A stretch of 64,000 nucleotides of DNA from Streptomyces sp. NBC_01551. GTDB lineage: Bacteria; Actinomycetota; Actinomycetes; Streptomycetales; Streptomycetaceae. Every line of letters begins with the position of its first letter. Within the stretch, counting starts at the first letter, position 1. The position numbers and the translations under genes were made by a program. This document shows positions 4,412-38,381 of this stretch, in pieces. The stretch is taken from the NCBI RefSeq assembly GCF_026339935.1, contig NZ_JAPEPX010000001.1:6289501-6353500 (forward strand), written 5' to 3'. The notes under the pieces were generated by a model. That model saw nothing but the letters and a program-made list of their open reading frames with translations, searched no databases and was not told the origin of the DNA.

Positions 4412-4771
4412 CTACGCCGCCGTACCGACCGTGGCCGAGAGCGTGGCGACGGCCGAGTGCACGGTGACGTGGACGTCCGGCGCCCGGACCCCTCCGAGGC
4501 CCGACCTCAGGGTCCGGCGGGCTTCCGCGCCGGCGGCGACCACGGCCGACTGCGTACCCGCGTCGCGGCACATGCGGATCGTCCGGGCGACGGTGCTCAC
4601 GGCCGCCGGACTCGGCGCGGCGTCGGACAGTTGCACCACCACGGGTGAGGACCGGTGGGCGGCCAACAGGCGGTCGATCGCCCAGGCGGTCGCGGCACGG
4701 CTGCCGACGTCGAGGTCGGCCCGCAGAGGGATGATCAGCACACCGCTGTCGGTCACCTTGATGGGCAGCAC
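4412..4771 (-). CDS. STAS-domain protein, possible anti-sigma factor antagonist
   Basis: A 119-residue cytoplasmic protein. The start chosen is GTG at 4771, preceded by GAAGGAG at 5 bases; an upstream in-frame extension exists but reads as Arg/Thr-rich non-conserved sequence. The pattern (VLIIPLRADLDVGSRAATAWAIDRLLA, then VVVQLSDAAPSPAAVSTVARTIRMCRDAG) resembles a STAS/MlaB-like fold, in which a helix end would carry a phosphorylatable Ser; here PSPAAVS occupies that region. It lies just downstream of a membrane protein carrying PP2C phosphatase and HATPase domains. That pairing is typical of partner-switching pathways, where the phosphatase activates the STAS antagonist and the HATPase domain phosphorylates it or sequesters a sigma factor. 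The function is inferred mainly from this context. Confidence 0.6.
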   Translation of the reverse strand: MLPIKVTDSGVLIIPLRADLDVGSRAATAWAIDRLLAAHRSSPVVVQLSDAAPSPAAVSTVARTIRMCRDAGTQSAVVAAGAEARRTLRSGLGGVRAPDVHVTVHSAVATLSATVGTAA

Positions 4772-4886
4772 GGACACTCCTTCGCTACGCGAGCCACGCC
4801 GGGTACCGCTCAGGTGCCCGGCCCTTCGCGTTGTATGCGTGCGGCCGTGGACAACCGCGGTGATCACCTGGAGGCCGCTCCGCCGC

Positions 4887-7580
4887 TCACGGCTCCTGCG
4901 CCGACGTCACGACCTGTTCGGCCCAGATGGTCTTTCCGGTGGCGGTGTAGCGCGTCCCCCACCGGTAGGCCACCTGGGCGATGAGGAACAGGCCCCGGCC
5001 GCCCTCCTCGTCGGTGGCGGCGTGGCGCAGGTGCGGAGCGGTGTGGCCGGTGTCGGAGACCTCGCAGATGAGGTTCTCGTCACGGATCAGCCGGACGTGG
5101 ACGGGCCCGTCGGCGTAGCGGATGGCGTTGGTGACCAGCTCACTGACGATCAGTTCGGTGACGAACGAGAACTCTTCGAGCCCCCACGCGCGCAGTTGCC
5201 CGGCGACGGCGGCGCGGGCGTCGGCGACGACCGCCGGGTCGCCTTCGAGCTCCCAGTCGGACACATCGCGCTCGTCGAGCATCCGGGTGCGGACCAGAAG
5301 CACGGCCACGTCGTCGTCCACTGGTCCGGGCAGCAGCCTCGCCAGCGCGAGGTCGCACAGCTGCTCCAGGGGGCGTCGGCGCTCGGCGAGGGTTTCGGCG
5401 AGGCGGCCGAGGGCCACGTCGGGGTCGTGGCCGACGGCGTGCGTCAGACCGTCGGTGAAGAGGGCCATGAGGCTGCCGGGCGGCAGCTGGAGTTCGATGC
5501 TCTGGAAGGTCTGGCCTCCCAGGCCGAGCGCGGGGCCCGGCGGCAGGTCCGGAAAGGTGACCGCACCGGTGTCCGCCTCGACCACCGCGGGCGGCCAGCC
5601 ACCCGCCCGCGCCATCGCGCAGCGCCCCGACACGGGGTCGTACACGGCGTACAGGCAGGTCACGGCGGCGACGTCCGCGCCGGGGCCGGATCGTGCGCGC
5701 TCTCCACCGAGCTCGCCGTCCCACTCCGCGGAGGTCTGCCGGGCCACGTCGTCCAGGTGGGAGAGGAGCTCGTCCGGTGGCAGGTCCATCCGGGCGAGGA
5801 CGCGCACGCTCGTGCGCAGCAGTCCCATGGCCGCGGCGGCGTGCAGGCCGTGTCCCTTCACGTTTCCGACCACCAGGGCGACGCGCGTGCTGGACAACGG
5901 AACGACGTCGAACCAGTCACCGCCGATTCCGGACCGGCTGTCGGCCGGCACGTAGCGGCTCGCCGCCTCGACAGCCGTCTGCGGCGCCAGTTTGCGCGGC
6001 AGCAGGCTCCGCTGGAGCTTGAGGGCCGCGGTGTGCTCGCGGGTGACGACCAGCATGAGCACGACGCCGATCAGCAGGGCTCCCAGCCCCACCACGGCCA
6101 CCCCGCCCGTCGGCCCGATCAGCGGCAGGTCGATGGAGGTCGCACCGTATCCGGGGTCGGCGTAGACGTGGAAGCCCGCGTAGCAGAACACCGAGAGCAT
6201 CATCAGCCCGCCCAGGCCCGGCAGCAGGCCCTTGGACACGAAGTCCTTCGCGCTGCGGCCGAGCACCTTGCGGTAGTACCAGACGCAGGCGAAGCCGGTC
6301 AGGCCGTAGTAGAAGGCGATCGCCAGGCCGACCGACTCGATGGAGTCGGCGAGCACGTTGTGGCTGATCAGCGACAGCAGGACGTAGAACGCGATCGAGA
6401 CCAGCCCCATGCCCACCGTCGACCAGGTCGGGGTGAGGTATTTCCGGTGGACCCGGGCGAACCCGGCGGGGACGGCCTTGTGCGCGGCCATCGAGAAGAC
6501 GGTCCGCGCCAGGGGCAGGATCGTGGTCTGGGTGGAGGCCGCCGCCGAGGTGAGCACCATGAGGATCAGCAGTCCGGTCAGGAGCCGGCCGATTCCCTGA
6601 TCGCCGAAGACCGCGCTGCCGAGGTCGGAGAGCACGTCGTCGTCGTTGTCCTGGTTGGCCAGGCCGATGCCCTCGGTCCCGACTCCGGCGAAGGCCTGCG
6701 CCGAGGTGGCGACCGCGACGTAGATGACCAGCAGCAGGACGGTCGAGATGACCGCGGCGCGCCCGGGGATGTGTTCGCTGTCAGCGGTCTCCTCGTTGAC
6801 CGTGACGGCGGTGTCCCAGCCCCAGTAGATGAAGACGGCCGCCAGCAGCCCCGCCGTCAGCGCTTCGGCGCTGGGCACGAGCAGCGGGTTGAACCAGGAG
6901 GCGGAGACGCGGATCGCCGTCGCCGGGGGATCCGTGTAGACCTTGGTCATCGCGGTGACGGCGAAGAGGATCAGTACGACCACCTCGACCGTCAGCAGGG
7001 CGCGCTGCAGGGCGGCGGAGATCTCGATGCCGACGTACGAGACGGCGGTCATCACCGCGATCCAGGCGACGCCCGCGACGGTGACCCACAGCCGGCTCTC
7101 CGCCAGCGACTCGTATCCGAACAAGCGGTACGTGTAGATGCCGGCGATCGCCGCGAGGTTCGCCATCACGATGACGTCGGCGACGATGATGCCCCAGCCG
7201 CCCATCCACCCGATGCGGGGGCCGAAGGCCCGGGTCGCCCAGGTGAAGGTGGTCCCGCAGTCCGCGTCGCCGGCGTTGAGCTCCCGGTAGGCGTAGGCGA
7301 TCAGCAGCATCGGGATGAAGGCCAGCATCGTGATGACCGGGGCCTGGGGGCCGACCCTGGTCACGATGAGGCCCAGCGTGGCCGCCAGGCTGTAGGCCGG
7401 AGCGGTGGAGGCCACGCCGATGGCCACGGAGGAGGCCAGGCCCAGGGCGCCGGCCTTGAGGCCCTTCTCCCCGGCTCCAGGACCCGCTGCGATCGCGGCC
7501 ACTGGCTCCTTGTCACCATTGGGCGGCGTCAAAACGGATTCACCGACTTCCTGAGCGGTCCATGGGCTCCGGCAGGGCAT
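4887..7580 (-). CDS. amino-acid permease / PP2C phosphatase / HATPase fusion
   Basis: An 897-residue three-part protein. Residues about 35-505 form an APC-superfamily amino-acid permease with 12 or more hydrophobic segments (AIGVASTAPAYSLAATLGLI is a typical APC TM1). Residues about 512-745 form a SpoIIE/RsbU-type PP2C phosphatase: LQRSLLP linker, GIGGDWFDVV, and ALFTDGLTHA. Residues about 770-897 form an anti-sigma-type HATPase: ELIVSELVTNAIRYA (N box), VSDTGHTAPHL and EGGRGLFLIAQVAYRWG. The join is a continuous reading frame with no stop. In the PP2C part the usual GDVxGHG reads GNVKGHG (Asn573), removing a metal-ligand Asp. The start at 7580 has GAGGGAAG just before ATG; a TTG about 16 codons later is possible. 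The neighbouring STAS gene suggests a partner-switching pathway sensing amino acids or membrane state. Confidence 0.85.
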   Translation of the reverse strand: MPCRSPWTAQEVGESVLTPPNGDKEPVAAIAAGPGAGEKGLKAGALGLASSVAIGVASTAPAYSLAATLGLIVTRVGPQAPVITMLAFIPMLLIAYAYRELNAGDADCGTTFTWATRAFGPRIGWMGGWGIIVADVIVMANLAAIAGIYTYRLFGYESLAESRLWVTVAGVAWIAVMTAVSYVGIEISAALQRALLTVEVVVLILFAVTAMTKVYTDPPATAIRVSASWFNPLLVPSAEALTAGLLAAVFIYWGWDTAVTVNEETADSEHIPGRAAVISTVLLLVIYVAVATSAQAFAGVGTEGIGLANQDNDDDVLSDLGSAVFGDQGIGRLLTGLLILMVLTSAAASTQTTILPLARTVFSMAAHKAVPAGFARVHRKYLTPTWSTVGMGLVSIAFYVLLSLISHNVLADSIESVGLAIAFYYGLTGFACVWYYRKVLGRSAKDFVSKGLLPGLGGLMMLSVFCYAGFHVYADPGYGATSIDLPLIGPTGGVAVVGLGALLIGVVLMLVVTREHTAALKLQRSLLPRKLAPQTAVEAASRYVPADSRSGIGGDWFDVVPLSSTRVALVVGNVKGHGLHAAAAMGLLRTSVRVLARMDLPPDELLSHLDDVARQTSAEWDGELGGERARSGPGADVAAVTCLYAVYDPVSGRCAMARAGGWPPAVVEADTGAVTFPDLPPGPALGLGGQTFQSIELQLPPGSLMALFTDGLTHAVGHDPDVALGRLAETLAERRRPLEQLCDLALARLLPGPVDDDVAVLLVRTRMLDERDVSDWELEGDPAVVADARAAVAGQLRAWGLEEFSFVTELIVSELVTNAIRYADGPVHVRLIRDENLICEVSDTGHTAPHLRHAATDEEGGRGLFLIAQVAYRWGTRYTATGKTIWAEQVVTSAQEP

Positions 7581-11546: not shown

Positions 11547-11590
11547 ACCCCGCCTCACCCGCGCGCGGTACCCCGCCTCACCCGCGCGCG
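11547..11590. repeat. 23-bp-period tandem duplication at the ramB stop
   Basis: Two identical 21-base blocks (11547-11567 and 11570-11590, each beginning ACCCCGCCTCACCCG) are repeated with a 23-base period. The second copy contains the ramB stop codon (complement of 11578-11580), so the last codons of ramB are duplicated into the 3' region. It looks like a slippage or repair duplication. Confidence 0.75.
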
Positions 11591-13356
11591 TCCCACACGC
11601 CCACCAGATCCCGGTACAGGGGCGACCTGGCCGGGAGCTCCGCATGCGTGCCGCACACCGCGCGGGTCCCGTCGAGTACGAGGACCCGGTCGGCCCTGAC
11701 GGCGGAGGAGATGCGGTGCGCGACCACCACCAGGGTGCCGGGGCGCTCGGCGAGCGCCCGCTCCGCGCGTTCCTCGGTCCGGGGGTCGAGGTGGCAGGTG
11801 GCCTCGTCGAGCAGCAGCAGGGGGGCGGGGGAGAGGTAGGCGGCGGTGAGGGCGAGGTGCTGCCGCTCGCCCTGGGAGAGCCGGCCCGGGTCGAGGACCG
11901 CGTCCAGCCCGCCGAGCCGGGCCACGAGTCCGTCCGCGCCGAGGGCGGCCGCGGCCCGCTCCACCTCGTCCCCGGGGACCGGGCCGGGGCACAGGTGGGT
12001 CAGGTTCTCGCGGACCGAGCCCGTGAACACGTACGCCTGCTGGGGCAGCAGCGTCCGGCGGACGTCGGGGCCGCGCCCCCGGGCGTCCCGCGCGGCGGCG
12101 CCCGCCACCCGTACGGTGCCCAGGCCGGGCGGCAGCAGGCCGGCGATCAGAGCGGTGAGGGTGGACTTGCCGATGCCGCTCGGCCCCACCACGGCCAGGT
12201 GTTCGCCCGGCCCGACCACCAGGTCGAGGCCGTCGATCACGGGGTGCGCGCAGGGGCCGTAGGCGAAGCGGACCCGCCGGAGTTCGACGGCGGGCGACGG
12301 CGCGGGCGCGGGTGCCGGCTCCGGCTGCGGCGCGGCCACCTCCGTCACGGCGGGAGCCTCCTGTTCCGGGGCCTCCGGTTCCGGGCCCTCCGGTTCCGGA
12401 TCGCAGAACCGGTCCAGTACCACCAGCAGCCTCGTGCCCGCCGCCCCCAGTGCCGTCATCAGCGCGTCCAGGGCGGGGAGCAGCGACTGCACGAGGTAGG
12501 TGAGGGCCCCGGCCACCGCCCCCGCGCTCACCCCGCGGCCGAGCAGCCAGGGCGTTCCGGCCAGCAGGACGACGACCGGCAACCGGCCTGCGACGCCCAG
12601 CGCCAGGGTGCGCAGCGCGGTCCACCGCGAGAGGCGTCCGGTCAGCCGCTCCTGCTCGGCGATCAGCAGCTCCACCGGGGCTCCGGCACTCGCCCCGCCC
12701 CCGCACGCGACGACGTCGCGCAGCCCCGCCGCCAGTTCGCCGGCGCGTGCGGACAGCGCCTCGTCGGCGTCGAGCGCCGCCCGCTGCACGCGCGCCATGG
12801 GGTGCAGCGTGGCCAGGAAGGCGGCCGTACCCAGGAGCAGCGCGGGCAGTACGAGGACCAGCAGGACCGGATCCAGCGCGGCCAGCCCGAGCAGCGCGCC
12901 CAGGGCGGTGAAGACGAACGACCGGGCCACCAGGACCAGTCCGGCGAAGGAGTCCCGGGCCATCTCGGTCTGCTGCGTGAGCCGGGAGACGGCGCCCGCG
13001 TCACCGGCCCGCCCGGGATCGGCGACGGCCCGCCCGATCGCCTGGCGCACGCAGCGCCGCACCAGGCCGTCCCGCAGCGGTTCGACCAGGTCCGCCAGTC
13101 CGCCGAACACCCCGCGCAGGGCGACGGCGCCGAGCAGGGCCCCCGCGCCGGCCACGGCCAGCCAGCCGAGCCCGGTGCCGGTGCGGCCGGCGAGGAAGCC
13201 GTCGTCGAGGGCGCGGGCCACGGCGTAGCCGCCGAGGAAGGTGTGCGCGGACTCCAGCAGGGACCAGAGCGCGAGCCGGCGCAACGCCCGGCCGCGCCCG
13301 CGCAGGAAACGCCGCCCCTCGCCGGACACCCGGCGCCAAGTCCCGTACTCGCTCAT
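11578..13356 (-). CDS. ramB: RamB-like ABC exporter subunit
   Basis: A 592-residue half-transporter: an ABC transmembrane domain (about 20-320, six hydrophobic segments) and a C-terminal nucleotide-binding domain (about 370-592). Walker A is GPSGIGKST, the signature is LSQGERQ (degenerate) and Walker B is LLLLDEATCHLD with the catalytic Glu. A Pro/Glu/Ala-rich linker (PEPEGPEPEAPEQEAPA and beyond) joins the domains. It starts at ATG 13356, overlapping the ramA stop by 4 bases (ATGA), so the two subunits are coupled and probably form a RamA-RamB heterodimer. By position and family it should export the SapB peptide or clear its leader. A tandem duplication covers its stop codon. Confidence 0.85.
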   Translation of the reverse strand: MSEYGTWRRVSGEGRRFLRGRGRALRRLALWSLLESAHTFLGGYAVARALDDGFLAGRTGTGLGWLAVAGAGALLGAVALRGVFGGLADLVEPLRDGLVRRCVRQAIGRAVADPGRAGDAGAVSRLTQQTEMARDSFAGLVLVARSFVFTALGALLGLAALDPVLLVLVLPALLLGTAAFLATLHPMARVQRAALDADEALSARAGELAAGLRDVVACGGGASAGAPVELLIAEQERLTGRLSRWTALRTLALGVAGRLPVVVLLAGTPWLLGRGVSAGAVAGALTYLVQSLLPALDALMTALGAAGTRLLVVLDRFCDPEPEGPEPEAPEQEAPAVTEVAAPQPEPAPAPAPSPAVELRRVRFAYGPCAHPVIDGLDLVVGPGEHLAVVGPSGIGKSTLTALIAGLLPPGLGTVRVAGAAARDARGRGPDVRRTLLPQQAYVFTGSVRENLTHLCPGPVPGDEVERAAAALGADGLVARLGGLDAVLDPGRLSQGERQHLALTAAYLSPAPLLLLDEATCHLDPRTEERAERALAERPGTLVVVAHRISSAVRADRVLVLDGTRAVCGTHAELPARSPLYRDLVGVWDARG

Positions 13357-15617
13357 CGAACCGCCTCCCGCCCGGGCGCCTCCAACGCGCGGCGCCGCAA
13401 CCCGCCGCCGCCCCGCCCGGCGGGCCCCCCGCCCGGTCCCGCCCCTGCCCCCTCGGCGCCCGGCTCCGGCTCCGCGCCCGGCTCCGGGTCCGGCTCCGCG
13501 CCCGGCTCCGCGCCCGGGTCCGGGTCCGCATCCGTGCCCGTGCCCGTGCCCGGGTCCGCGTCCGCATCCAGGTCCGCGCCCGGCTCCAGCTCCGGGCCCG
13601 TGCCCGGGTCCGCGTCCGCATCCAGGTCCGGGCCCTGCTCCGCGCCCGTGCCCGGCTCCGGGTCGGCATCCGGGTCCGCGCCCGCGCCCCTGCCCGGGTC
13701 CGCATTCAGGTCCGCGCCCGGACCCGGGTTCGCGTCCGGCTCCGGTGCCGGCCGAAGGTCCGGACCCGTGCCCGGGTTCGCGGCCGGACCCGCGGCCGGA
13801 CCCGCGGCCGGACCCGCGGCCGGGATCGGGGCCGGTGTCGGGGCCGCGCTTGTTTCTGCGGCCGGTGTCGGCGGCGGCTGCGTGTCCGGGGCCGCTGCGG
13901 CGCCGAACACCGCACGGTAGGCGGGGTCCCGCCACAGGTCCGCGTGTGTGCCCGTCGCCCGGATCCGGCCCGCGTCGAGCCATACGACGAGGTCGGCGCC
14001 GGCGGCCGAGGAGACGCGGTGGGCGACGACGAGACGGGTGCCCGGCCGGACGTCGCGGGCCAGGGCCCGCTCCACCTCCCGGGCGGTGACGGTGTCCAGG
14101 CTCGACAGCGCGTCGTCCAGGACGAGCAGCCGCCCGGCGTGGCAGAACGCCCTGGCCAGGCCGAGGCGTTGCAGCTCCCCGCCGGACATCGGCGCGTCCG
14201 CGAGCGCCGTGCCGTAACCCTCGGGCAGCCGGCGCACGAAGGTGTCGGCCCCGGCCGCCCGCGCGGCGGCGCGCACGGTCTCCGGGGCCGGCTGCGGCCC
14301 GCTGCCGAACGCGACGGCAGCCGCGACGCTCTCGCCGAAGAGGGCAGGCCGTTCGAAGGCGTGGCCGACCTCGCGGCGCAGCTCCCCGGCGGACAGTTCG
14401 TCCAGCGGCACGCCGTCGAGCAGGACCTCGCCCTCGTCGCACGCGGTGAGCCGCCCGGCCACGGCGGCCAGCGTCGTCTTGCCGGAGCCCGAGCGGCCGA
14501 CGACGGCGGCGGTCGTCCCGCCGGGGATCCTCAGGTCGACGTCGCACAACACCACGGCGCCCGCGCGGACGACCCGTACCCCGCGCAGCTCCAGCGTGCC
14601 CGGCCCGGCCCCGGGCAACCGGCGCACCCCTTGCGGGAGTTCGGGCAGGTCGAAGAGGGCCGCCGTGCGGCGGGCGGCGGCCCGGCCGCGCACCACGGCC
14701 GCCAGCCGCCCCGTCACGGCGCCGACCCCGGCCGCGAGGCCCGCGTAGCGGACCGCGGCGAGGAGCCCTCCGACGCCCAGGGCCCCCTCGGCGAGGCGGA
14801 TCCCGCCCACGCCGAGGACGACGTACAGCAGCAGGGGCATGAGGGCGCTCGTACGGGCCATCGTGGTGCCGTAGATCCGCCAGGTCCGCCGCCCCTCGGA
14901 GCCGAGCTCCGGCAACCGGCCCAGCACGCGCGCCTGTTCGCGCTCGGCGGTGCCGGCGGCGGCGATGGTACGGGCGCCCGCGAGGGCCTCCACGAGGAGG
15001 CCGGCCATCGCGAGCTGCACCTCCTGGTAGCGGCTGACGCTGGCGCCGGAGTCGCGGGCGAACGCCCTCAACAGCACGGCGAGCAGCGGGAGTCCGGCGA
15101 GGAAGGCCAGCGCGGTCCACACGTCGACCAGGACCAGCGCCACGAGTCCGCCGAACGGGGGGAGCAGGGCCACGGCCGCGCCCACGACGGCCGCCGGCAC
15201 GGCGCCGGCGGTGGTGGCCTGCGAGGTCAGCCGGGCGGAGAGTTCGCCGGGGGAGTGCCGGGCGGCGTGGTGCGGCGCGGTGCGCAGCAGGCGGCCGAGC
15301 CCAAGGCGCCGCAGCCAGGCGGTGGAGCGGGCGTCGACGCCGCCGGTGAGCCGGGCCGTCGCCGCGTCGAGCAGCACCTCGGCGGCGATCACCACCGCGC
15401 ACCATGCGGTCCACCGGGCGCCGCCGGGGTCCTGGCGCAGCAGCAGGTCGAGGGTGTGGCCGAGGACCGCCGGTTCGGCCAGGGCCGCGCCGGCGGCGCC
15501 CACCGAGCAGGCGGACACGGCCGCGAGGCGGCCGGCGCTGTGTCGCGCGGCCGCCCGCAGAGCCCGGTCGGCGCCGCGCGCGGCCGCCGCCTCGCCGGTG
15601 GCATCGGGTGCGGTCAT
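13353..15617 (-). CDS. ramA: RamA-like ABC exporter subunit with repetitive acidic tail
   Basis: A 754-residue half-transporter. Residues about 20-330 form the ABC transmembrane domain and about 350-572 the nucleotide-binding domain: Walker A GRSGSGKTTLA, signature SGGELQRLGLARA, Walker B LLVLDDALSSLD, where Asp replaces the usual catalytic Glu. The conserved part ends near residue 572 (DPAYRAVFG). A tail of about 180 residues rich in Pro, Gly, Ala, Asp and Glu follows, with 18-residue repeats; a normal RamA lacks such a tail, as far as I know. The start ATG 15617 has a GGAG 9 bases upstream. The tail runs straight into the ATGA overlap with ramB, so it is in frame and translated. Its function is unknown; a flexible acidic linker is one option. 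Confidence 0.85.
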   Translation of the reverse strand: MTAPDATGEAAAARGADRALRAAARHSAGRLAAVSACSVGAAGAALAEPAVLGHTLDLLLRQDPGGARWTAWCAVVIAAEVLLDAATARLTGGVDARSTAWLRRLGLGRLLRTAPHHAARHSPGELSARLTSQATTAGAVPAAVVGAAVALLPPFGGLVALVLVDVWTALAFLAGLPLLAVLLRAFARDSGASVSRYQEVQLAMAGLLVEALAGARTIAAAGTAEREQARVLGRLPELGSEGRRTWRIYGTTMARTSALMPLLLYVVLGVGGIRLAEGALGVGGLLAAVRYAGLAAGVGAVTGRLAAVVRGRAAARRTAALFDLPELPQGVRRLPGAGPGTLELRGVRVVRAGAVVLCDVDLRIPGGTTAAVVGRSGSGKTTLAAVAGRLTACDEGEVLLDGVPLDELSAGELRREVGHAFERPALFGESVAAAVAFGSGPQPAPETVRAAARAAGADTFVRRLPEGYGTALADAPMSGGELQRLGLARAFCHAGRLLVLDDALSSLDTVTAREVERALARDVRPGTRLVVAHRVSSAAGADLVVWLDAGRIRATGTHADLWRDPAYRAVFGAAAAPDTQPPPTPAAETSAAPTPAPIPAAGPAAGPAAGPAANPGTGPDLRPAPEPDANPGPGADLNADPGRGAGADPDADPEPGTGAEQGPDLDADADPGTGPELEPGADLDADADPGTGTGTDADPDPGAEPGAEPDPEPGAEPEPGAEGAGAGPGGGPAGRGGGGLRRRALEAPGREAVR
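13356..13902 (-). repeat. low-complexity repeat region encoding the RamA tail
   Basis: About 550 bases built from short CCGG(A/G)TC/GCCCGG-type units. Two identical 31-base blocks lie at 13546-13576 and 13600-13630 with a 54-base (18-codon) period, encoding repeated DLDADADPGTG in the protein. Further out, GGACCCGCGGCC repeats (around 13780-13820) give AAGPAAGP. All repeats keep the reading frame. Confidence 0.85.
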
Positions 15618-15641
15618 GGGCGGCGGCTCCAGGGTGTGGTG

Positions 15642-15671
15642 CGGGCCCGGGCGGTGAACCGCCCGGGCCCG
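15642..15671 (-). terminator. ramS-ramA intergenic hairpin
   Basis: A perfect 14-bp inverted repeat (arms 15642-15655 and 15658-15671, beginning CGGGCCCGGGCGGT) with a 2-base centre lies between ramS and ramA. A stem-loop between ramS and ramA is known in Streptomyces coelicolor and attenuates ramAB so that more precursor than exporter is made; this one is placed the same way. Confidence 0.8.
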
Positions 15672-15682
15672 GAAGGACCTGA

Positions 15683-15826
15683 TCAGTGACAGGTCGTGAT
15701 GCTCAGGCTGCTGTCGCCGCACAGGAGCAGGCTGGCCCGGCTGCCGCCACCGCCGCCGCCGCCGTGCGCGACCTCGGTGGTCTCTTCCTTCGGGGTGTCC
15801 ATCGACTGCAGGTCGAGAAGCGTCAT
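15683..15826 (-). CDS. ramS: SapB precursor peptide RamS (class III lanthipeptide)
   Basis: A 47-residue peptide starting MTLLDLQSMDTPKEETTEVA and ending SRASLLLCGDSSLSITTCH. The leader LLDLQSM is the recognition motif of class III leaders. The core matches SapB (ending SRASLLLCGDSSLSITTCN in S. coelicolor, from memory) except for the last residue. Two S-x3-C units, SLLLC and SITTC, supply the two lanthionine rings; remaining serines can become dehydroalanine. Unusually, a run of seven Gly (residues 22-28) lies at the leader/core junction. The ATG overlaps the ramC stop (ATGA), giving translational coupling, and an AGAGGA ribosome site precedes it. SapB is a secreted surfactant that lets aerial hyphae break surface tension. 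Confidence 0.95.
   Translation of the reverse strand: MTLLDLQSMDTPKEETTEVAHGGGGGGGSRASLLLCGDSSLSITTCH
15743..15763 (-). repeat. GGC triplet run encoding Gly7 in RamS
   Basis: Seven consecutive Gly codons, six GGC and one GGT. Triplet runs of this kind expand or contract by polymerase slippage in frame, so the length may vary between strains. Confidence 0.8.
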
Positions 15827-18558
15827 GTCCGATTCCTCTTCACTGTGGTGTTCCGATGGGTCACGGCCCCCGCCAGGGGGACCGGCTCTGGGGCCGCCGC
15901 GGCCGACCGCGGCGGCGGGAGGAACGGCAGGTGCGCGCGCCCGCCGGGCGCGGCGCTGCCGAGGGCGAGGAGCGCGCCGGCCGTGCCCGTGGACAGGTCC
16001 ATGGACAGGCGCATCATCTGCTCGCCGGGGAAGGCCAGGAAGCCTTGGTACGGGACCGCGTGCCGGGCCAGGGCCGACACCTGCCGGGCGATGTCCTCGG
16101 GGGCGGAGCCCGGGCCCGGCGTGGTGGTCCGCGCCAGGTGCAGGATCATTCCGGCGGCGCCGCGGAACAGGCCGGGCTGCGCGTAGAAGGTCGCCTGGGC
16201 GGCGCGGACGATCTCCGGCCGGGCCCGTTCGAAGCGGTCGTCCGCAGCATGCTCCAGCCAGTCGTCCAACACCATGCCGATCCCCACGCTGCCGGCCCCG
16301 AGGTAGGGCATCGTGCGCCACCCCTCGTCGACCTGGAGGGTGCCGAAGGCGCTGGTCACGCAGCGGTCGAGATCGCGGTGCAGGGCCCTGGCGGCCCGGA
16401 GCAGGAACTCCCGGTCGCCGGTGCGTTCGAACAGCCGCAGGTGGAGCAGCGCGGGTCCGCTGTGCCCGTGGAGCAGGCCGGCCCGTTTCGGGCTGACGGG
16501 GGCTGCGGCCCCGGACCCGGCCCCGGCCCCGGACCCGGACCCGGACCCGGCCTTGGACCCGGCCTTGGACCCGCTCCCGGAGAGGAGGTCGGCGCAGCGC
16601 AGGGCCGCGGCGTGCAGTGCGCTCTCGCCGGTGGCCGTGCCCAGGGAGTCCAGGGCCAGCCCGATGCCGGCGAGCCCGCTGTGCAGGTCGGGTCCGACCG
16701 ACTGCCAGGCCTGGCCCAGCAGTTGCTCGGCGAGCGCGAGCGCGCGGTCGCGGTGGCCGAGGCGCTCCAGGGTCCACGCCAGACCGGCGAGGCCGTCGTA
16801 GAAGCCCAGCGGCATGCCGGAGGCCGGTTCCTTCGTCCGGGCCAGCAGCCATTCCTCGGCTTCGGGCCACGGGTCGGCGCCGGTCTCGGCGAGCGCGTAC
16901 AGCACGCCGGCCGCTCCGTAGCCGAAACCGGTGCCGCCGCCGGCGGTCGCGAACTGGGCCGTGTCCCCGGGGAAGAGGCGGTCGTCGCGGTCGAAGGTCG
17001 CGCTCGCCCGCAGCGCCGCCGTCATCGAGGCGCGGGCCGCGTCCCAGTCGCCCGGCTCGACCGGCAGGTAGGGGCGCCGGGCCACCACCGCGCGAGCGCC
17101 GTCCCCCGAGGACCCCGACACGGCCCCCGACCCGGCCTCGGATCCGGCGAGGATCTCCCGTACCGCCTCGTCGAGGAACTCACGGGGTACGGGGAACTGC
17201 TCGGCGGCGATGTCGGCCAGGTGCGCCGCCTTGGCCCGGTCCATCACCAGCAGGCTGGTCAGCGGCAGGAACAAGGCCAGGCGCAGACAGGCCAGGGCGT
17301 ACCGGTCGACCCCGAAACCACGCCGGTCGGCGGGGGCGACGAACGCCGGGTTGGCGACGGTCTGGCGCAGCCCCTCGTCGACGTGGGCGGCGGCCTCGAA
17401 GTCGAGCAGTGCCACCGACGGTTCGCCGGTCTCCTCGTCCTCCGCGACCATGACGTTGAACAGGTGCAGGTCGTTGAAGACGATCCCGCGGGCGTGCACC
17501 TCCTCCACGGCCTCGGTCACCCGCCGGTGGACCTCCAGCGCCCACCGGGTGTACTCCGCGAGCTCCGCGGGATCCGGGTCCGCCTCGATCAGCGGGTGCC
17601 GGCGGGCGAAGTAGGTGTTGAGGGGCTTGCCCTCCAGGTGCTGCATCACCAGGAAGTGGTGGTCCCCGACGGTGAAGGTGCCGTGGACCGAGGGCACGCA
17701 GTCCAGGCCGGCGAGCTGCTCCAGGTCCCTGCGTTCGCGGTGCAGCCGGGTCACGGCGTCCGCTCCGTCGGCCGCGAGCCCAGCGAAGGGGCGCGCTTCC
17801 TTGAGGACGACCGGCTCGCCGGTGCGGACGTCGCGGCCGGCGTAGACCCCGCCCCCGTTGGAGAAGTGCAGGGCCCGCTCGACGGTGTACGGGAGGCCTT
17901 CGAGGGTGACGGCGGCCCGCCGGGCCAGATGGGGCGCCAGGAAGTCGGGCAACTCGACCCACTCCGGCGGCTGGAACACCGGACCCCGGGGGTCCGGGAC
18001 CAGCCGGCCGTCCGGGGCCTCGATCGCCGGGACCAGCTCGCCGCGGTCGTCGTAGCAGTGCCGCAGGGTGAAACTGCCGTAACGCAGGTGCACGGGACCG
18101 TCGTTCCAGCGCAGGTCGCTCAGGATGTACGGGCCGGGCTCGCCGGCCAGCAACGCGTCCAGCTCCTCGGCGATGGTCCGGCACTGCTCCTCGTCCGCAG
18201 GGTAGACGGTGAGGAACTTGCCGCTCGCCGCGCGGTCGGCGTACTTCGCGTTGCGCAGGTGCAGCAGGTACCGGCTCGGCACGAACTTGAACGCGATCCG
18301 ACGCTCCACGCAGTAGCGGTGGACCCGTTCGAGGACGGACTCGGCGTTGTCCAGGCACGCCGAGACGTGGATCTTCCAGCCCTGCGGGGGCAGCCGGACG
18401 TCGACGGGGCGCAGCGCCAGCCAGTCCCCGCTGCGGTGCGTCTGCCACCCCGCCGGCACGGGGGCGAGCGCGGCCCGGTAGCTCTCCTCGGCCCGCCGGT
18501 ACGGCGCGTCGTAGAACCAGCGGTCGGCGTCGCAGAAGGCGGCGTACCCCTTGTTCAC
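15823..18558 (-). CDS. ramC: class III lanthipeptide synthetase RamC
   Basis: A 911-residue, three-domain enzyme that dehydrates Ser/Thr in RamS and closes the thioether rings. The N-terminal lyase-like domain (about 1-210) eliminates phosphate. The kinase domain (about 220-480) phosphorylates Ser: VVLKEARP (Lys253), GIVFNDLHLFNVM (Asp363) and LLDFEAA (Asp386). The C-terminal cyclase-like domain (about 560-911) keeps SGLAGIGLAL and LLHGHSGP but lacks the zinc-binding Cys/His set, which separates class III from class IV synthetases. A Gly/Ser/Ala/Lys repeat (residues about 660-683) interrupts this domain. The start is GTG 18558 with GAGGGAG 6 bases upstream. It is the first gene of ramCSAB and overlaps ramS by 4 bases. 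Confidence 0.93.
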   Translation of the reverse strand: MNKGYAAFCDADRWFYDAPYRRAEESYRAALAPVPAGWQTHRSGDWLALRPVDVRLPPQGWKIHVSACLDNAESVLERVHRYCVERRIAFKFVPSRYLLHLRNAKYADRAASGKFLTVYPADEEQCRTIAEELDALLAGEPGPYILSDLRWNDGPVHLRYGSFTLRHCYDDRGELVPAIEAPDGRLVPDPRGPVFQPPEWVELPDFLAPHLARRAAVTLEGLPYTVERALHFSNGGGVYAGRDVRTGEPVVLKEARPFAGLAADGADAVTRLHRERRDLEQLAGLDCVPSVHGTFTVGDHHFLVMQHLEGKPLNTYFARRHPLIEADPDPAELAEYTRWALEVHRRVTEAVEEVHARGIVFNDLHLFNVMVAEDEETGEPSVALLDFEAAAHVDEGLRQTVANPAFVAPADRRGFGVDRYALACLRLALFLPLTSLLVMDRAKAAHLADIAAEQFPVPREFLDEAVREILAGSEAGSGAVSGSSGDGARAVVARRPYLPVEPGDWDAARASMTAALRASATFDRDDRLFPGDTAQFATAGGGTGFGYGAAGVLYALAETGADPWPEAEEWLLARTKEPASGMPLGFYDGLAGLAWTLERLGHRDRALALAEQLLGQAWQSVGPDLHSGLAGIGLALDSLGTATGESALHAAALRCADLLSGSGSKAGSKAGSGSGSGAGAGSGAAAPVSPKRAGLLHGHSGPALLHLRLFERTGDREFLLRAARALHRDLDRCVTSAFGTLQVDEGWRTMPYLGAGSVGIGMVLDDWLEHAADDRFERARPEIVRAAQATFYAQPGLFRGAAGMILHLARTTTPGPGSAPEDIARQVSALARHAVPYQGFLAFPGEQMMRLSMDLSTGTAGALLALGSAAPGGRAHLPFLPPPRSAAAAPEPVPLAGAVTHRNTTVKRNRT
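16510..16580 (-). repeat. in-frame GSGS-type repeat inside ramC
   Basis: Short tandem units of the form CCCGGA and two copies of GGACCCGGCCTT encode a Gly/Ser/Ala/Lys-rich linker inside the cyclase-like domain. Unit length is a multiple of three, so the frame is kept. Confidence 0.75.
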
Positions 18559-24087: not shown

Positions 24088-25857
24088 TCACTTCCCGCCG
24101 GTCGGCGGGGGATCGGCGGCTCCGGGGCCGGACGTCCACTGCGCTCCGGTGCGCCGGCGGAAGGCGGCGACGGCGGCCTCCACGGTGGGGAAGAAGTGCG
24201 CGGGGTCGATGGTCCGGGTGAGTCCGTACCGCTCGATCTTCCGCCGCACGGGGTCCTTGATCTCCGCGAACACGAGGTGGACGCCGTCCGCGTTGAGCGC
24301 CTCGTCGAGGTCTTCCAGGATGTCGGCGGCGGTGGTGTCCACGTCGGTCATGGGCTCCGCCGCGACCACGATCCAGCTCGGCCGCGGGTCCGCGCCGGCC
24401 AGCCGCCTGATCTCGTCCCGGAAGGTCTTGGCGTTGGCGAAGAAGAGCGGGGCGTCGAACCGGTAGATCACCAGCCCCGGCAGCTGCTCGGCCCGCGGGT
24501 AGGAGCGGATGTCGTGGAAGCCCTCCAGACCCCGAACCCGCCCCAGCACGGTGTCGTACGGCCACCAGGCGCGGCGGAACACGTTGAGGACCGACAGGCC
24601 CACGGCGATGGCGATCCCGGGCAGCACGCCGAGCAGGGCCACCCCGGCGAACGCCGCGAAGCAGAGCAGGAACTCCGTCCGGCGCTGGCGCCACAGCCGT
24701 ACGGCTCCCGGGATGTCGGCCAGGGACAGCGACGCGGTGATGACCACGGCGGCCAGGGCCGGCTGGGGGAGGTTGCGGAACAGTCCCGGGGCCAGCACGA
24801 GCATCAGGACGATGAGCGCCGCTCCGACGACCCCGGTGAGCTGGCTCCTCGCCCCCGCACGCTCCGCGACCGCCGTACGGGACCCGCTCGTGCTGACGGG
24901 GAAGCCCTGGAAGAGGGCGGCCGCCAGGTTGGCCGCGCCGACGCCCGCCATCTCCTGGTTGCCGCGGACCTCCTGCCCCGTGCGGGCGGCGAAGGCGGAC
25001 GCGTTGGAGATCGTGTCGGCCAGGGACACCAGGGCGATGCCCAGCGCACCGCCGAGCAGCGGCGCGAGGTCGGAGAGCCGCACGTCGGGCACCGTGAACG
25101 GCGGGAAGCCCTCGGGCAGTACCCCGACCAGGCCGACGCCGTGCTCGCCCAGGTCGAAGGCGGAGGCCGCGGCGATCGCCAGGACCACCATCACGAGCAC
25201 CGCCGGGATCTTCGGCAGGAAGCGCTGCAGGACCAGGATCAGCGCGATGCCGCCGAGACCCACCACGGCGGCGGCCGGTACCGCCGCCCCGTCGGCGACG
25301 CTGCGCACGAGGCCGACGCACTCGCCGATCAGGTTGTCCGCCTCGACCTTGAAGCCGAGCAGCTTGGGCAGCTGACCGATCAGGATGGTCAGGGCCAGGC
25401 CGTTCATGTAGCCGATCATCGTCGGCTTGGAGACCAGGTCCGCGATGAAGCCGAGCTTCGCCACCGAGGCCAGGATCATGACGGCCGCCACCATGACCGC
25501 GAGCATCGACGCGAGCGCGACGGCCCGGTCGGGATCCCCGTCGGCCGCCACCAGCGGCAGCACGGTGGCGGCGATCATCGGCCCCAGCGAGGAATCCGGG
25601 CCCAGCACCAGGATCCGGGACGGCCCGAACACCGCGTACCCGAGCATGCAGAGGATCGTCGTGTACAGGCCGGTGATGGCCGGCAGGCCCGCCAGCTCGG
25701 CGTACGCCATGCCCTGCGGCACCAGCAGCGTGGTCAGGACGATTCCCGCGACCAGGTCCTTGACCAGCCACTCGCGCCGGTACGACGCGACCGCGCGGAC
25801 CCCGGGAACTCCCCGGAAGAGGGAGCGGACCCCGTGCCCGTCGTGCCGGGTGGTCAC
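24088..25857 (-). CDS. SulP-family anion transporter with STAS domain
   Basis: A 589-residue SLC26/SulP transporter. The membrane part (about 25-420) begins LVKDLVAGIVLTTLLVPQGMAYAELAGLP, the family signature, and includes PVSTSGSRTAVAERAGARSQLTG. The cytoplasmic STAS domain (about 445-560) has VIYRFDAPLFFANAKTFRDEI. It transports an inorganic or organic anion (sulfate, bicarbonate or dicarboxylate); the substrate cannot be read from sequence. The start is GTG 25857 with GGGAGG upstream. The stop of the P-type ATPase gene is only 12 bases away, so the genes are cotranscribed, possibly balancing cation and anion movement. Confidence 0.9.
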   Translation of the reverse strand: MTTRHDGHGVRSLFRGVPGVRAVASYRREWLVKDLVAGIVLTTLLVPQGMAYAELAGLPAITGLYTTILCMLGYAVFGPSRILVLGPDSSLGPMIAATVLPLVAADGDPDRAVALASMLAVMVAAVMILASVAKLGFIADLVSKPTMIGYMNGLALTILIGQLPKLLGFKVEADNLIGECVGLVRSVADGAAVPAAAVVGLGGIALILVLQRFLPKIPAVLVMVVLAIAAASAFDLGEHGVGLVGVLPEGFPPFTVPDVRLSDLAPLLGGALGIALVSLADTISNASAFAARTGQEVRGNQEMAGVGAANLAAALFQGFPVSTSGSRTAVAERAGARSQLTGVVGAALIVLMLVLAPGLFRNLPQPALAAVVITASLSLADIPGAVRLWRQRRTEFLLCFAAFAGVALLGVLPGIAIAVGLSVLNVFRRAWWPYDTVLGRVRGLEGFHDIRSYPRAEQLPGLVIYRFDAPLFFANAKTFRDEIRRLAGADPRPSWIVVAAEPMTDVDTTAADILEDLDEALNADGVHLVFAEIKDPVRRKIERYGLTRTIDPAHFFPTVEAAVAAFRRRTGAQWTSGPGAADPPPTGGK

Positions 25858-36507: not shown

Positions 36508-36861
36508 TCAGCTGTGCAGCCGGTCCGGCCAGTCCTGCGGGACCCGGTCGGCCGGGCCCGGGGCCGGCTGGTCCGCCGGATGGCCGCTCGGCGGGGTCAG
36601 CTCGGGGCCCGAGTCGTACAGGGCGTTGGTGTCGTAGTTCCAGAACCACTCCTCGCCCGGCTCGAAGCTCTGCACCAGGGGATGGCCGGAGGCCTTCCAA
36701 TGTGCGGTGGCGTGCTGGGCCGGTGAGGAGTCGCAGCAGCCGATGTGGCCGCACTGGGCGCAGCGCCGCAGGTGGAACCACCAGCCGCCCACCGCGTCGC
36801 AGTCGCCGCAGCCGGTGCCGGTGGGCGGGACGTTCGGGTCGATGCCGTCGATGCCTGTCAT
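36508..36861 (-). CDS. UBP-type zinc-finger protein
   Basis: A 117-residue protein with a ubiquitin-hydrolase-type (ZnF-UBP) domain: CGDCDAVGGWWFHLRRCAQCGHIGCCDSSPAQHATAHWKASGHPLVQSF across about 17-68, with the full Cys/His set. In eukaryotes the fold binds the ubiquitin C-terminus; the bacterial role is unknown. The ATG (36861) overlaps the histidine-kinase stop by 4 bases (ATGA), so it is translated as part of that signalling operon. A C-terminal Pro-rich tail follows the domain. Confidence 0.88.
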   Translation of the reverse strand: MTGIDGIDPNVPPTGTGCGDCDAVGGWWFHLRRCAQCGHIGCCDSSPAQHATAHWKASGHPLVQSFEPGEEWFWNYDTNALYDSGPELTPPSGHPADQPAPGPADRVPQDWPDRLHS

Positions 36862-38381
36862 ACGGGATCCTCCGCGGTGTCGGTGTCGGTGTCGGTGCCG
36901 GTGTTGTTGTCCGGGCCGGGCTCCGGGTCGCTCCCGGTCTCGCTCTCGGGGTCCGGGGCGGTCAGCGGGAGCAGCACCTGGAACCGGGTGTCGCCCGGTG
37001 CGGACTCGACCTGGAGGCTGCCGTGGTGCTTGTTCACGACGATCCGCCAGGAGATGTCGAGGCCGAGACCGGTGCCCTCGCCGACCGGCTTGGTGGTGAA
37101 GAAGGGATCGAAGATGCGGCTGCGGATCTCCGCCGGGACGCCGGGCCCCGTGTCCCGGAACTCCACCAGAAGCCTGTCGCCCTCCCGCGCCGTGCGGACG
37201 GTCAGTGTGCCGTCGCCGCCGGTGTCGGCGATGGCGAACACCGCGTTGTCGATGAGGTTGGTCCACACCTGGTTGAGCTCCGCCGGGTAGGCGGGCACGT
37301 CCGGCAGGGAGCGGTCGTAGTCCTTGACCACGCGTACCCGGGAGCCGATCTTCCCGGACAGCATCAGCAGGGTGCTGTCGAGGAGTTCGTGCACGTCCAC
37401 GACGCGGTGCGGGGCGCGGTCCAGCTGCGAGTACTGCTTCGCCGCGTCCACCAGGTGGGAGATGCGGGTGGTGGAGTCGTCGATCTCGTCCATCAGAAGC
37501 TCGGTCTCGACCGTGTAGTTGAGCCAGCCGATGGCCCCCGGCAGGATGTCCTCGGCCACGGTCGCCGCGACCTGCTCCAGCCAGTCCGTGTCCAGCCCGG
37601 CCTGTACGAAGACCGGCGCGATCCGCCAGCCCTCCTGGATGCCGTGGTCGTCGAGCCAGTCCGCCAGCTCGTCCTCCCGGTCGGAGGCCTCCAGCGGGCT
37701 CAACACCGGTGCTTTCGCGACCCGTTCGGCGGTCCGCTCCTGGATCTCGATGAGCTCGGCGAGCGCCTCGCGCGAGTAGGGGCCCTGGGCGATGACGGCC
37801 AGCTTGTGCCGCATCTTGCCCACCCGCTCCCGCAGCGTCGCCGTGGCCCGTACGGCCGCCGCGGCCGGGTTGTTGAGCTCATGGGTGAGCCCGGCGGACA
37901 ACGACCCCAGCGCCAGCAGCCGTTCGCGCTGGCCGATGGCCCGCTGCGTGTTCCTCGAACCGAAGAAGAGCCCCTCCAGCAGGTGCGCCGCCATCGGGAA
38001 CCAGTCGCGCATGATGTCCGCGAACGACTGCGCGGGCAGGACGAAGAAGCGCGTCGGCTCGGTCACCCGCATGGAGTTGTTGTACGTCTGCGGCACCTGG
38101 TCGCCCAGGTACGCCTGCATCGCCCCCGCGTACACGCCGCGCTGCGAGGTGCGGCTCACCTCGACGTCGTCGCCGCCGACCCGGCGGGACAGCACGACGG
38201 TGCCCTCGATCATCACGTAGAAGCAGGTGGCCGGGTCGCCCTCGGTGTACACGGCGCCGGGTTCGAACCGCTCCACCCGCCCCTCGCCGCACAGCCGCCC
38301 GAGCTGCTCCGGGGAGAGCTTCTCGAACAGGAACAGCGAGGCGATCTCCTGCGGGCTGCACGGCAGCGGCTGCCCGCTCAC
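36858..38381 (-). CDS. histidine kinase with cyclic-nucleotide-binding domain
   Basis: A 507-residue cytoplasmic protein without membrane segments. Residues about 10-125 form a cNMP-binding-like domain (LFLFEKLSPEQLGRLCGEGRVERFEPGAVYTEGDPATCFYVMIEG). The dimerisation region has LGSLSAGLTHELNNPAAAAVR with the phospho-accepting His. The ATPase domain shows NQVWTNLIDNAVFAI (N box), FRDTGPGVPAEI (G1) and GTGLGLDISWRIV (G2). A repetitive Asp/Thr/Pro tail (DPESETGSDPEPGPDNN...) ends the protein. The start is GTG 38381, overlapping the stop of the response-regulator/reductase gene by 4 bases (GTGA). It is the natural partner of that receiver domain. Confidence 0.9.
   Translation of the reverse strand: MSGQPLPCSPQEIASLFLFEKLSPEQLGRLCGEGRVERFEPGAVYTEGDPATCFYVMIEGTVVLSRRVGGDDVEVSRTSQRGVYAGAMQAYLGDQVPQTYNNSMRVTEPTRFFVLPAQSFADIMRDWFPMAAHLLEGLFFGSRNTQRAIGQRERLLALGSLSAGLTHELNNPAAAAVRATATLRERVGKMRHKLAVIAQGPYSREALAELIEIQERTAERVAKAPVLSPLEASDREDELADWLDDHGIQEGWRIAPVFVQAGLDTDWLEQVAATVAEDILPGAIGWLNYTVETELLMDEIDDSTTRISHLVDAAKQYSQLDRAPHRVVDVHELLDSTLLMLSGKIGSRVRVVKDYDRSLPDVPAYPAELNQVWTNLIDNAVFAIADTGGDGTLTVRTAREGDRLLVEFRDTGPGVPAEIRSRIFDPFFTTKPVGEGTGLGLDISWRIVVNKHHGSLQVESAPGDTRFQVLLPLTAPDPESETGSDPEPGPDNNTGTDTDTDTAEDPV

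Follow-up and report, generated by a model that had tools for sequence, protein, structure and literature searches.

An APC permease fused to PP2C and HATPase domains

We analyzed a gene in a 64,000-nucleotide stretch of the genome of Streptomyces sp. NBC_01551 (contig NZ_JAPEPX010000001.1, positions 6,289,501 to 6,353,500), hereafter called the window, in whose coordinates all positions are given. The gene (4887..7580) and all other features described below lie on the minus strand. It is one unbroken open reading frame (ORF), read from 7580 to 4887 and coding for 897 amino acids, as defined by the ORF, its translation, Pfam matches and 70 other distinct sequences of the same architecture; the start codon is uncertain (ATG at 7580 or GTG at 7502). 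By eye, no domain was recognizable in the plus-strand translation of the same bases. At E 0.001 the protein matched only five Pfam families. Its N-terminal half is an APC permease (approximately residues 45–512, 6045..7448), matched by AA_permease_2 at residues 47–471 (E 4e-26), with both PF13520 (92.3 bits) and PF00324 (59.9 bits) above the curated cut-off. Behind it lie a PP2C domain (residues 531–769, 5274..5990), matched by SpoIIE (PF07228) at residues 564–765 with E 1e-42 and 146.8 bits, and an RsbW/SpoIIAB-type ATPase domain (residues 775–891, 4908..5258), matched by HATPase_c_2 (PF13581) at residues 780–886 with E 2e-11.

An AlphaFold2 model of the protein had a mean predicted local distance difference test score (pLDDT) of 84.8 and a predicted template modelling score (pTM) of 0.69. 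We counted 12 transmembrane helices (TM) in it, with TM1 broken at residue 60 and TM6 at residues 252–254, as in the LeuT/APC fold. The structure rows of VIA-align span only residues 38–528 of the model. A helix at residues 493–526 (6003..6104) runs unbroken across the junction, from TM12 into the PP2C linker (TREHTAALKLQRSLLP), with mean pLDDT dropping to 71 at residues 511–520. In Foldseek searches the C-terminal half matched PDB entry 3ke6 and RssB of P. aeruginosa.

The junction between permease and PP2C lies at approximately base 6045 (residue 512/513), close to base 6050, where the first-pass annotation of this DNA had feared a sequencing or assembly error. Such an error is excluded, because the same junction recurs in 71 distinct fusions, the window copy included, from many assemblies; all 71 have a T[RH][EG][HY] motif at residues 513–516. 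We found no point in favour of an assembly or frame artefact that joined two genes, and its probability is negligible. The continuous frame reported in that annotation is thus a single minus-strand gene with APC, SpoIIE and HATPase_c_2 domains, and the architecture is a real, conserved family. With a transporter fold covalently joined to a signalling output, the protein has the structure of a transceptor, the working concept used here.

Distribution and origin of the fusion

Genome searches scored the best few candidates per genome at E limits of 1e-140 to 1e-170, at which distant or independently made fusions could be missed. Counting the window's own genome, 21 of 295 same-genus genomes contained full-length relatives, as did 17 of 200 genomes of a family sample; other genera of the family also carry the fusion. 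A sample of the order contained it in 17 of 245 genomes, all of the same genus. In the class (296 genomes) and phylum (296 genomes) samples the full fusion was detected at these limits in the window's own genome only, the remaining matches covering one half, mostly the permease. Thus, no fusion was seen outside the family (Streptomycetaceae) in the order, class and phylum samples, and among 72,556 plasmid records no place covered 80% of the fusion, only separate halves being matched. Carriers include S. avidinii, S. griseofuscus (among them strain DSM 40191, locus L132), S. hygroscopicus, and Kitasatospora and Streptantibioticus strains. One genome (G240) bears a second fusion (L018 and L036).

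After removal of duplicates, the set for comparison consisted of 71 fusions (distinct by their last 300 residues), 40 unfused PP2C-HATPases and 50 unfused permeases. A fusion cut by a contig end (L135), first sorted as permease-only, was excluded from the permease counts (50, not 51). The 40 unfused PP2C-HATPases were not drawn at random: they comprise near relatives, own paralogues and genes encountered in the flanks. In quick trees that gave long-branch warnings, the C-terminal halves of the fusions formed one clade nested among unfused relatives (Shimodaira–Hasegawa approximate likelihood-ratio test (SH-aLRT) 99, with the three Asp columns discussed below blanked beforehand), and the permease halves also formed one clade (SH-aLRT 100). 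The monophyly of both halves points to a single fusion event, apparently within Streptomycetaceae.

The nearest unfused relatives of the C-terminal half were PAS-PAS-GAF-PP2C-HATPase proteins (L213 and L214, the genes of L035 and L185). In unfused relatives a linker of the TREH.AAL.LQRSLLP type follows directly after GAF, and in L034 and L185 the GAF/linker border reads ...IDNARRF-TREHAAAL.LQRSLLP. The junction of the fusion reads ...GVVLMLVV-TREHTAALKLQRSLLP, and unfused permeases at the matching place read like ...GVVLMLI-QWAVQGSWFRHPDVP. From these borders we read the fusion as a permease that, having lost its short tail, took over from PAS/GAF as the input immediately ahead of the PP2C linker helix.

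Two other candidates were considered and rejected. At several loci (L058/L155 and L152/L238, each one genome twice, and L059, L060 and L069) an unfused permease relative is followed immediately, on its own strand, by a separate PP2C gene. We do not take these split pairs as the ancestral state: the phosphatase partner of L069 falls outside the sister clade of the fusion, and the others are 32–34% identical. They may indicate that permeases of this family are also tied to PP2C signalling in a second way, without fusion. A possible second transporter-PP2C fusion in the window genome (L260, match spanning residues 440–768) reads by eye as a PAS/GAF-type PP2C gene without a transporter. Some of the nearest unfused GAF-PP2C-HATPase genes also occur directly behind a second PP2C gene, with 34–35% identity (L212, L214, L218 and L220).

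Changed phosphatase and conserved ATP site

We followed four Asp positions of the PP2C domain, 555 (GGD), 573 (VGD), 710 (TDG) and 756 (DD), and checked the register on Rv1364c. By the order of motifs, not by alignment, we take residues 573, 710 and 756 to match D628, D746 and D795 of SpoIIE. The latter three have been described as putative metal ligands (PMC5468089). All four metal-ligand Asp are kept in only 18 of the 71 fusions, compared to 37 of the 40 unfused relatives (Fisher p 2e-12, relatedness ignored). The other 53 fusions lack at least one, at three different positions, and 10 of these 53 differ just by Asp-to-Glu at 573. D555 is kept throughout (71/71). At residue 573, 39 unfused relatives have Asp and one has Glu, whereas all six fusions of the window's clade, including the window copy, have Asn (codon at 5862..5864). 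The window set is therefore D-N-D-D (D555, N573, D710 and D756) and lacks the complete Asp set of active PPM/SpoIIE phosphatases. The fusions with all four Asp, of which L010 is an example, come mostly from genera coded g13 and g14 and from relatives of S. cinnamoneus. On the tree, the minimum number of changes within the fusions was 4 at 573, 11 at 710, 3 at 756 and 0 at 555. More generally, 8 of 56 PP2C columns that are at least 95% conserved in unfused relatives fall under 80% in fusions, including three of the Asp columns and the His of the AGH motif, which is Gly in the window (codon 661, 5598..5600).

The first-pass annotation had described a 12-TM APC transporter joined to two catalytic modules. 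The permease, PP2C and HATPase domains are indeed present, but the description of the PP2C domain as catalytic is not supported for the window: the phosphatase is probably dead or weak there, because one metal-ligand Asp is Asn and 53 of the 71 fusions lack at least one Asp. We therefore label this domain a predicted pseudophosphatase. RssB provides a precedent for a stress-signalling PP2C domain that is a pseudophosphatase (PMC12143880).

The annotation's own proposal was a bifunctional sensor, in which a single STAS protein would be the target of both an active PP2C phosphatase and an active kinase, the state of the permease deciding which of the two prevails. The 18 complete Asp sets, the 10 conservative Glu573 variants and the invariant D555 agree with it; Asn573 and the Gly in place of the conserved His in the window, together with the loss of Asp at three positions across the family, speak against it and make it rather doubtful.

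The ATP site shows a different pattern. None of the 36 HATPase columns that are at least 95% conserved in unfused relatives falls under 80% in fusions, although five are at 85%–94%. E814, N818, D843 and R862, which are the N-box Glu and Asn, the G1 Asp and the G2 Arg of RsbW/SpoIIAB-type kinases, are kept in 71/71 fusions. We also computed ratios of nonsynonymous to synonymous substitution rates (dN/dS) for 32 non-overlapping pairs of fusions. These were 0.15–0.63 for the permease, 0.08–0.99 for PP2C and 0.04–0.73 for HATPase, all below 1, and the PP2C domain is therefore still under selection. These data bear on the idea of a chance fusion that has no selected function and decays piecemeal. 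Repeated loss of catalytic Asp, the patchy spread within the genus and the scarcity of shared neighbours (see below) would fit such decay, yet the frame is open over its full length in all 71 distinct sequences, dN/dS stays below 1 in each of the three domains and the checked ATP-site residues are invariant, which makes a chance fusion quite improbable.

The transport core and the possible ligand class

The permease core is well kept. Unfused proteins have 175 near-invariant permease columns, of which 141 retain their residue in 95% or more of the fusions; among the other 34, the window departs from the unfused consensus at 7, of which 3 (106, 271 and 357) are among 14 positions that we tabulated. 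A large derived clade of fusions is different: in 32 of its 38 rows Tyr at 424 (TM10) is replaced with Gln or His, and many of these 32 are also changed at 60 (TM1), 135 (TM3) and 350 (TM8), the TM places being taken from the model. The clade with the most changed PP2C domain is also the clade with the most changed transport core. This joint change fits a transporter becoming a receptor, although it is suggestive only.

The flow could also be reversed, with the C-terminal module regulating the transporter (for example, by gating uptake in dependence on ATP or STAS) without participation of a sigma factor. The preserved transport core, including the few departures in the window, speaks for this reading. 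However, the C-terminal half is nested among PAS/GAF-headed regulators, in which the N-terminal domain is the presumed input, and the substitutions at 424 and in TM1, TM3 and TM8 of the derived clade look like a change from transporter to receptor. We consider reversed flow unlikely.

The 54 unfused and 74 fusion loci that were available for analysis of gene context were reduced to 49 and 64 distinct loci, respectively. Within the family, 7 of the 49 unfused permease loci had a carboxynorspermidine-synthase-like saccharopine dehydrogenase, a DAO-type oxidase or a flavin amine oxidase no more than three genes away (these markers were picked after being seen, and no chance expectation was computed). 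One of the seven, L154, belongs to the pair of unfused sequences that are most closely sister to the fusion clade in the permease tree. Two saccharopine-dehydrogenase-like genes that we tested were below the cut-off of the carboxynorspermidine synthase model.

Outside the family, we took 15 permease loci, of which 14 were readable (L257 had no permease in its gene list). At eight of the 14, genes of polyamine or γ-aminobutyric acid (GABA) type lay no more than three genes from the permease, and for six of these loci NCBIfam supported the assignment. The genes included agmatinase (L246), a saccharopine-type dehydrogenase with a GABA-transaminase-like gene that was below cut-off (L247), an aminotransferase, two aldehyde dehydrogenases and alanine dehydrogenase (L248 and L256), a saccharopine-type dehydrogenase with two aldehyde dehydrogenases (L250), aminobutyraldehyde dehydrogenase (L251), and a saccharopine-type dehydrogenase (L253 and L258). 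When ten enzymes from six of these loci were searched with NCBIfam, nine had a family above cut-off; the assignment of L256 rests on 77–89% identity to the L248 genes and that of L253 on local BLAST. L252 is a close copy of the L251 region with the aldehyde dehydrogenase further away, and at L245, L249, L254, L255 and L259 no polyamine- or GABA-type genes were seen by eye. Based on these genes near unfused permease relatives, our guess is that the ligand would be a diamine, polyamine or omega-amino acid. Amino-acid availability, which had been suggested as the signal, is not supported; the context of the unfused relatives points to polyamines or GABA.

Neighbouring genes and the partner of the kinase

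Downstream of the fusion gene lies a gene for a degenerate STAS protein (4412..4777), through which the signal had been thought to reach a sigma factor. It has Pro-Ala at the canonical phosphosite, near which the alignment is gapped and the register possibly off by one or two residues; four of the five other small STAS proteins of the genome have Ser at this site, and the fifth has Ala followed by Thr. At 22.8 bits it also scores lowest among the ten STAS matches of the genome, and a search of solved structures with it gave a chance match only. Of 31 fusion-bearing genomes, five had a match to it at E 1e-5, which was close in three (100, 73 and 68% identity) and at 32–35% in two. It adjoins the fusion in the window only, and in the two close relatives it lies approximately 3 kb and 34 kb from the fusion. 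Without the usual phosphoacceptor and with close relatives in only 3 of the 31 genomes, this protein is probably not the cognate partner, and the proposed route through it is not borne out. Another of the ten STAS matches is in a SulP-type sulfate permease with its own STAS domain (24088–25857, minus strand).

An earlier comparison of neighbours had set 20 fusion loci against the window's genes only. We extended it to an all-against-all comparison of the 64 distinct loci with four genes on each side. No gene in this range was common to more than 11 of the 64 loci, and the most widely shared neighbours, an adjacent gene pair in those 11, appear to be simple synteny. In 6 of the 64, a gene near the fusion belonged to a family with PP2C-HATPase paralogues among its members; at L079 (G240) and L160 such a paralogue immediately precedes the fusion and has the same orientation. 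The locus therefore lacks the adjacent cognate STAS gene with a Ser/Thr phosphosite and the sigma gene of a classical partner-switch operon. Since the STAS neighbour appears to lack the usual phosphosite and is rarely kept, and no neighbour gene is widely shared, the partner of the kinase is probably encoded in trans.

Proposed function

We propose that the fusion is a transporter-derived sensor, or transceptor, that controls an RsbW-type ATPase via a pseudophosphatase relay in a partner-switching pathway, a reading to which we give an even chance. An APC permease, probably of polyamine/omega-amino-acid type, would have replaced the PAS/GAF input of a GAF-PP2C-HATPase regulator. Ligand binding or transport would shift TM12, whose continuation is the helix controlling the PP2C switch. 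In the window lineage the catalytically crippled PP2C domain would serve as a relay between this membrane helix and the C-terminal RsbW-like ATPase, which could then bind a sigma factor or phosphorylate a STAS antagonist whose gene lies elsewhere. For RsbU, the linker ahead of PP2C is described as setting activity by dimerizing the phosphatase domains via switch helices, and the authors argue that this extends to many input domains (PMC12143880). By analogy, we infer that the TM12-linker helix may couple the permease to PP2C as the RsbU linker does. That the transporter itself could be the sensor, as suggested in the first-pass annotation, remains the most economical reading, because the permease sits in the place of the PAS/GAF input and the model has a continuous helix into the PP2C linker; we infer that it senses a ligand and of which class, which way the signal runs, that the phosphatase has lost its activity and the kinase has not, and what the partner and output are.

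Several observations weigh against this proposal. The phosphatase may work in the part of the family that has all four Asp or differs from this set only by Glu573, and residual activity could persist despite the single Asp-to-Asn change of the window. The contrast between PP2C and HATPase columns is modest (p 0.02, relatedness ignored). PP2C dN/dS in the eight all-Asp pairs (0.24–0.81) is like that of the rest, with no relaxation tied to Asp loss, and the rates therefore do not decide whether catalysis has been lost. The polyamine lead was drawn from loci of unfused relatives, with markers chosen on sight, and marker genes lay within three genes of 0 of the 64 distinct fusion loci. The single origin depends on trees with long-branch warnings, and the loci share no widely kept neighbour. 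In addition, the measured activities of CbrA, a transporter-headed histidine kinase considered below, were reported as not significantly affected by histidine (PMC7096432), and a fusion by itself is therefore no proof of sensing.

More tentatively, this family may represent the first transceptor of partner-switching, in which a polyamine-type APC receptor would drive an anti-sigma kinase via a pseudophosphatase. Its metal sites would form a natural series from DDDD to clearly dead (e.g., DDGV), so that conversion of a bifunctional switch into a pure kinase could be watched in living species. If the proposal is true, nutrient uptake and sigma control are combined in one polypeptide, and the transceptor idea extends beyond histidine kinases. 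Among 25 same-genus genomes listed, each had 1 to 18 relatives of the PP2C-HATPase half (E 1e-80), and to our knowledge the inputs of such streptomycete proteins are mostly unknown. The fusion family offers a directly testable input, a transporter with a guessable ligand class, and also one-helix coupling between transporter and PP2C switch, along with phosphatase ligands that have changed repeatedly while the ATP site has stayed intact.

Other genes of the window

Two further groups of genes, both on the minus strand, were observed. A RamC-like gene (15823–18558; RamC_N, Pkinase and LANC_like domains) adjoins two large genes that are ABC-exporter-like by eye (11578–15617), and the whole (11578–18558) is perhaps a SapB/Ram-type lanthipeptide cluster. 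Three adjacent genes at 36508–40054 look like a redox-linked signalling cluster: a receiver domain fused to a pyridine-nucleotide-disulphide oxidoreductase (38378–40054), a cyclic nucleotide-binding (cNMP-binding) domain with a histidine-kinase-type ATPase (36858–38381) and a zf-UBP protein (36508–36861).

Comparison with known systems

The PubMed Central literature yielded no characterized protein with the APC, PP2C and HATPase architecture, in agreement with the first-pass annotation, although not all searches were directed at the architecture and subscription papers lay outside them. Several known systems share parts of it. The actinobacterial PAS/GAF-PP2C-HATPase regulators (L185/L214, L035/L213 and L069; Rv1364c, PDB 3ke6, for the PP2C-HATPase part) have the same domain order and linker motif, whereas the fusion has an APC permease as input and at least one changed PP2C metal Asp in 53 of 71 members. 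RssB of E. coli has a role in proteolysis of σS. It likewise has a pseudophosphatase PP2C domain in general stress control (PMC12143880), but differs in its response-regulator input and in binding σS.

In 5TMR-SpoIIE proteins, which are said to be prevalent in archaea, a transporter-related membrane fold (that of S-components) is likewise combined with a SpoIIE-type PP2C domain; the membrane fold is a different one, and the portion of the source available to us mentions neither APC nor HATPase for that architecture (PMC11109136). CbrA of Pseudomonas (SLC5-STAC-PAS-histidine kinase) is also described as a nutrient transporter fused to a signalling output (PMC7096432, PMC13022988). It differs in having SLC5 rather than APC, a STAC linker, and a histidine kinase with a response regulator. 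The fusion is not a member of the SLC5/STAC histidine kinases (CbrA and CrbS): Pfam searches at E 0.001 found no match to STAC, SLC5 or the histidine-kinase dimerization core, only the HATPase_c superfamily being shared. In Ks-Amt5, an ammonium transporter-histidine kinase, a transporter was likewise recruited as a sensor, with an Amt fold and a histidine kinase instead, and it is reported to bind ammonium ions without translocating them (PMC5764959). In mode of action the fusion most resembles CbrA and Ks-Amt5, and by ancestry it is a GAF-PP2C-HATPase regulator whose input has been exchanged.

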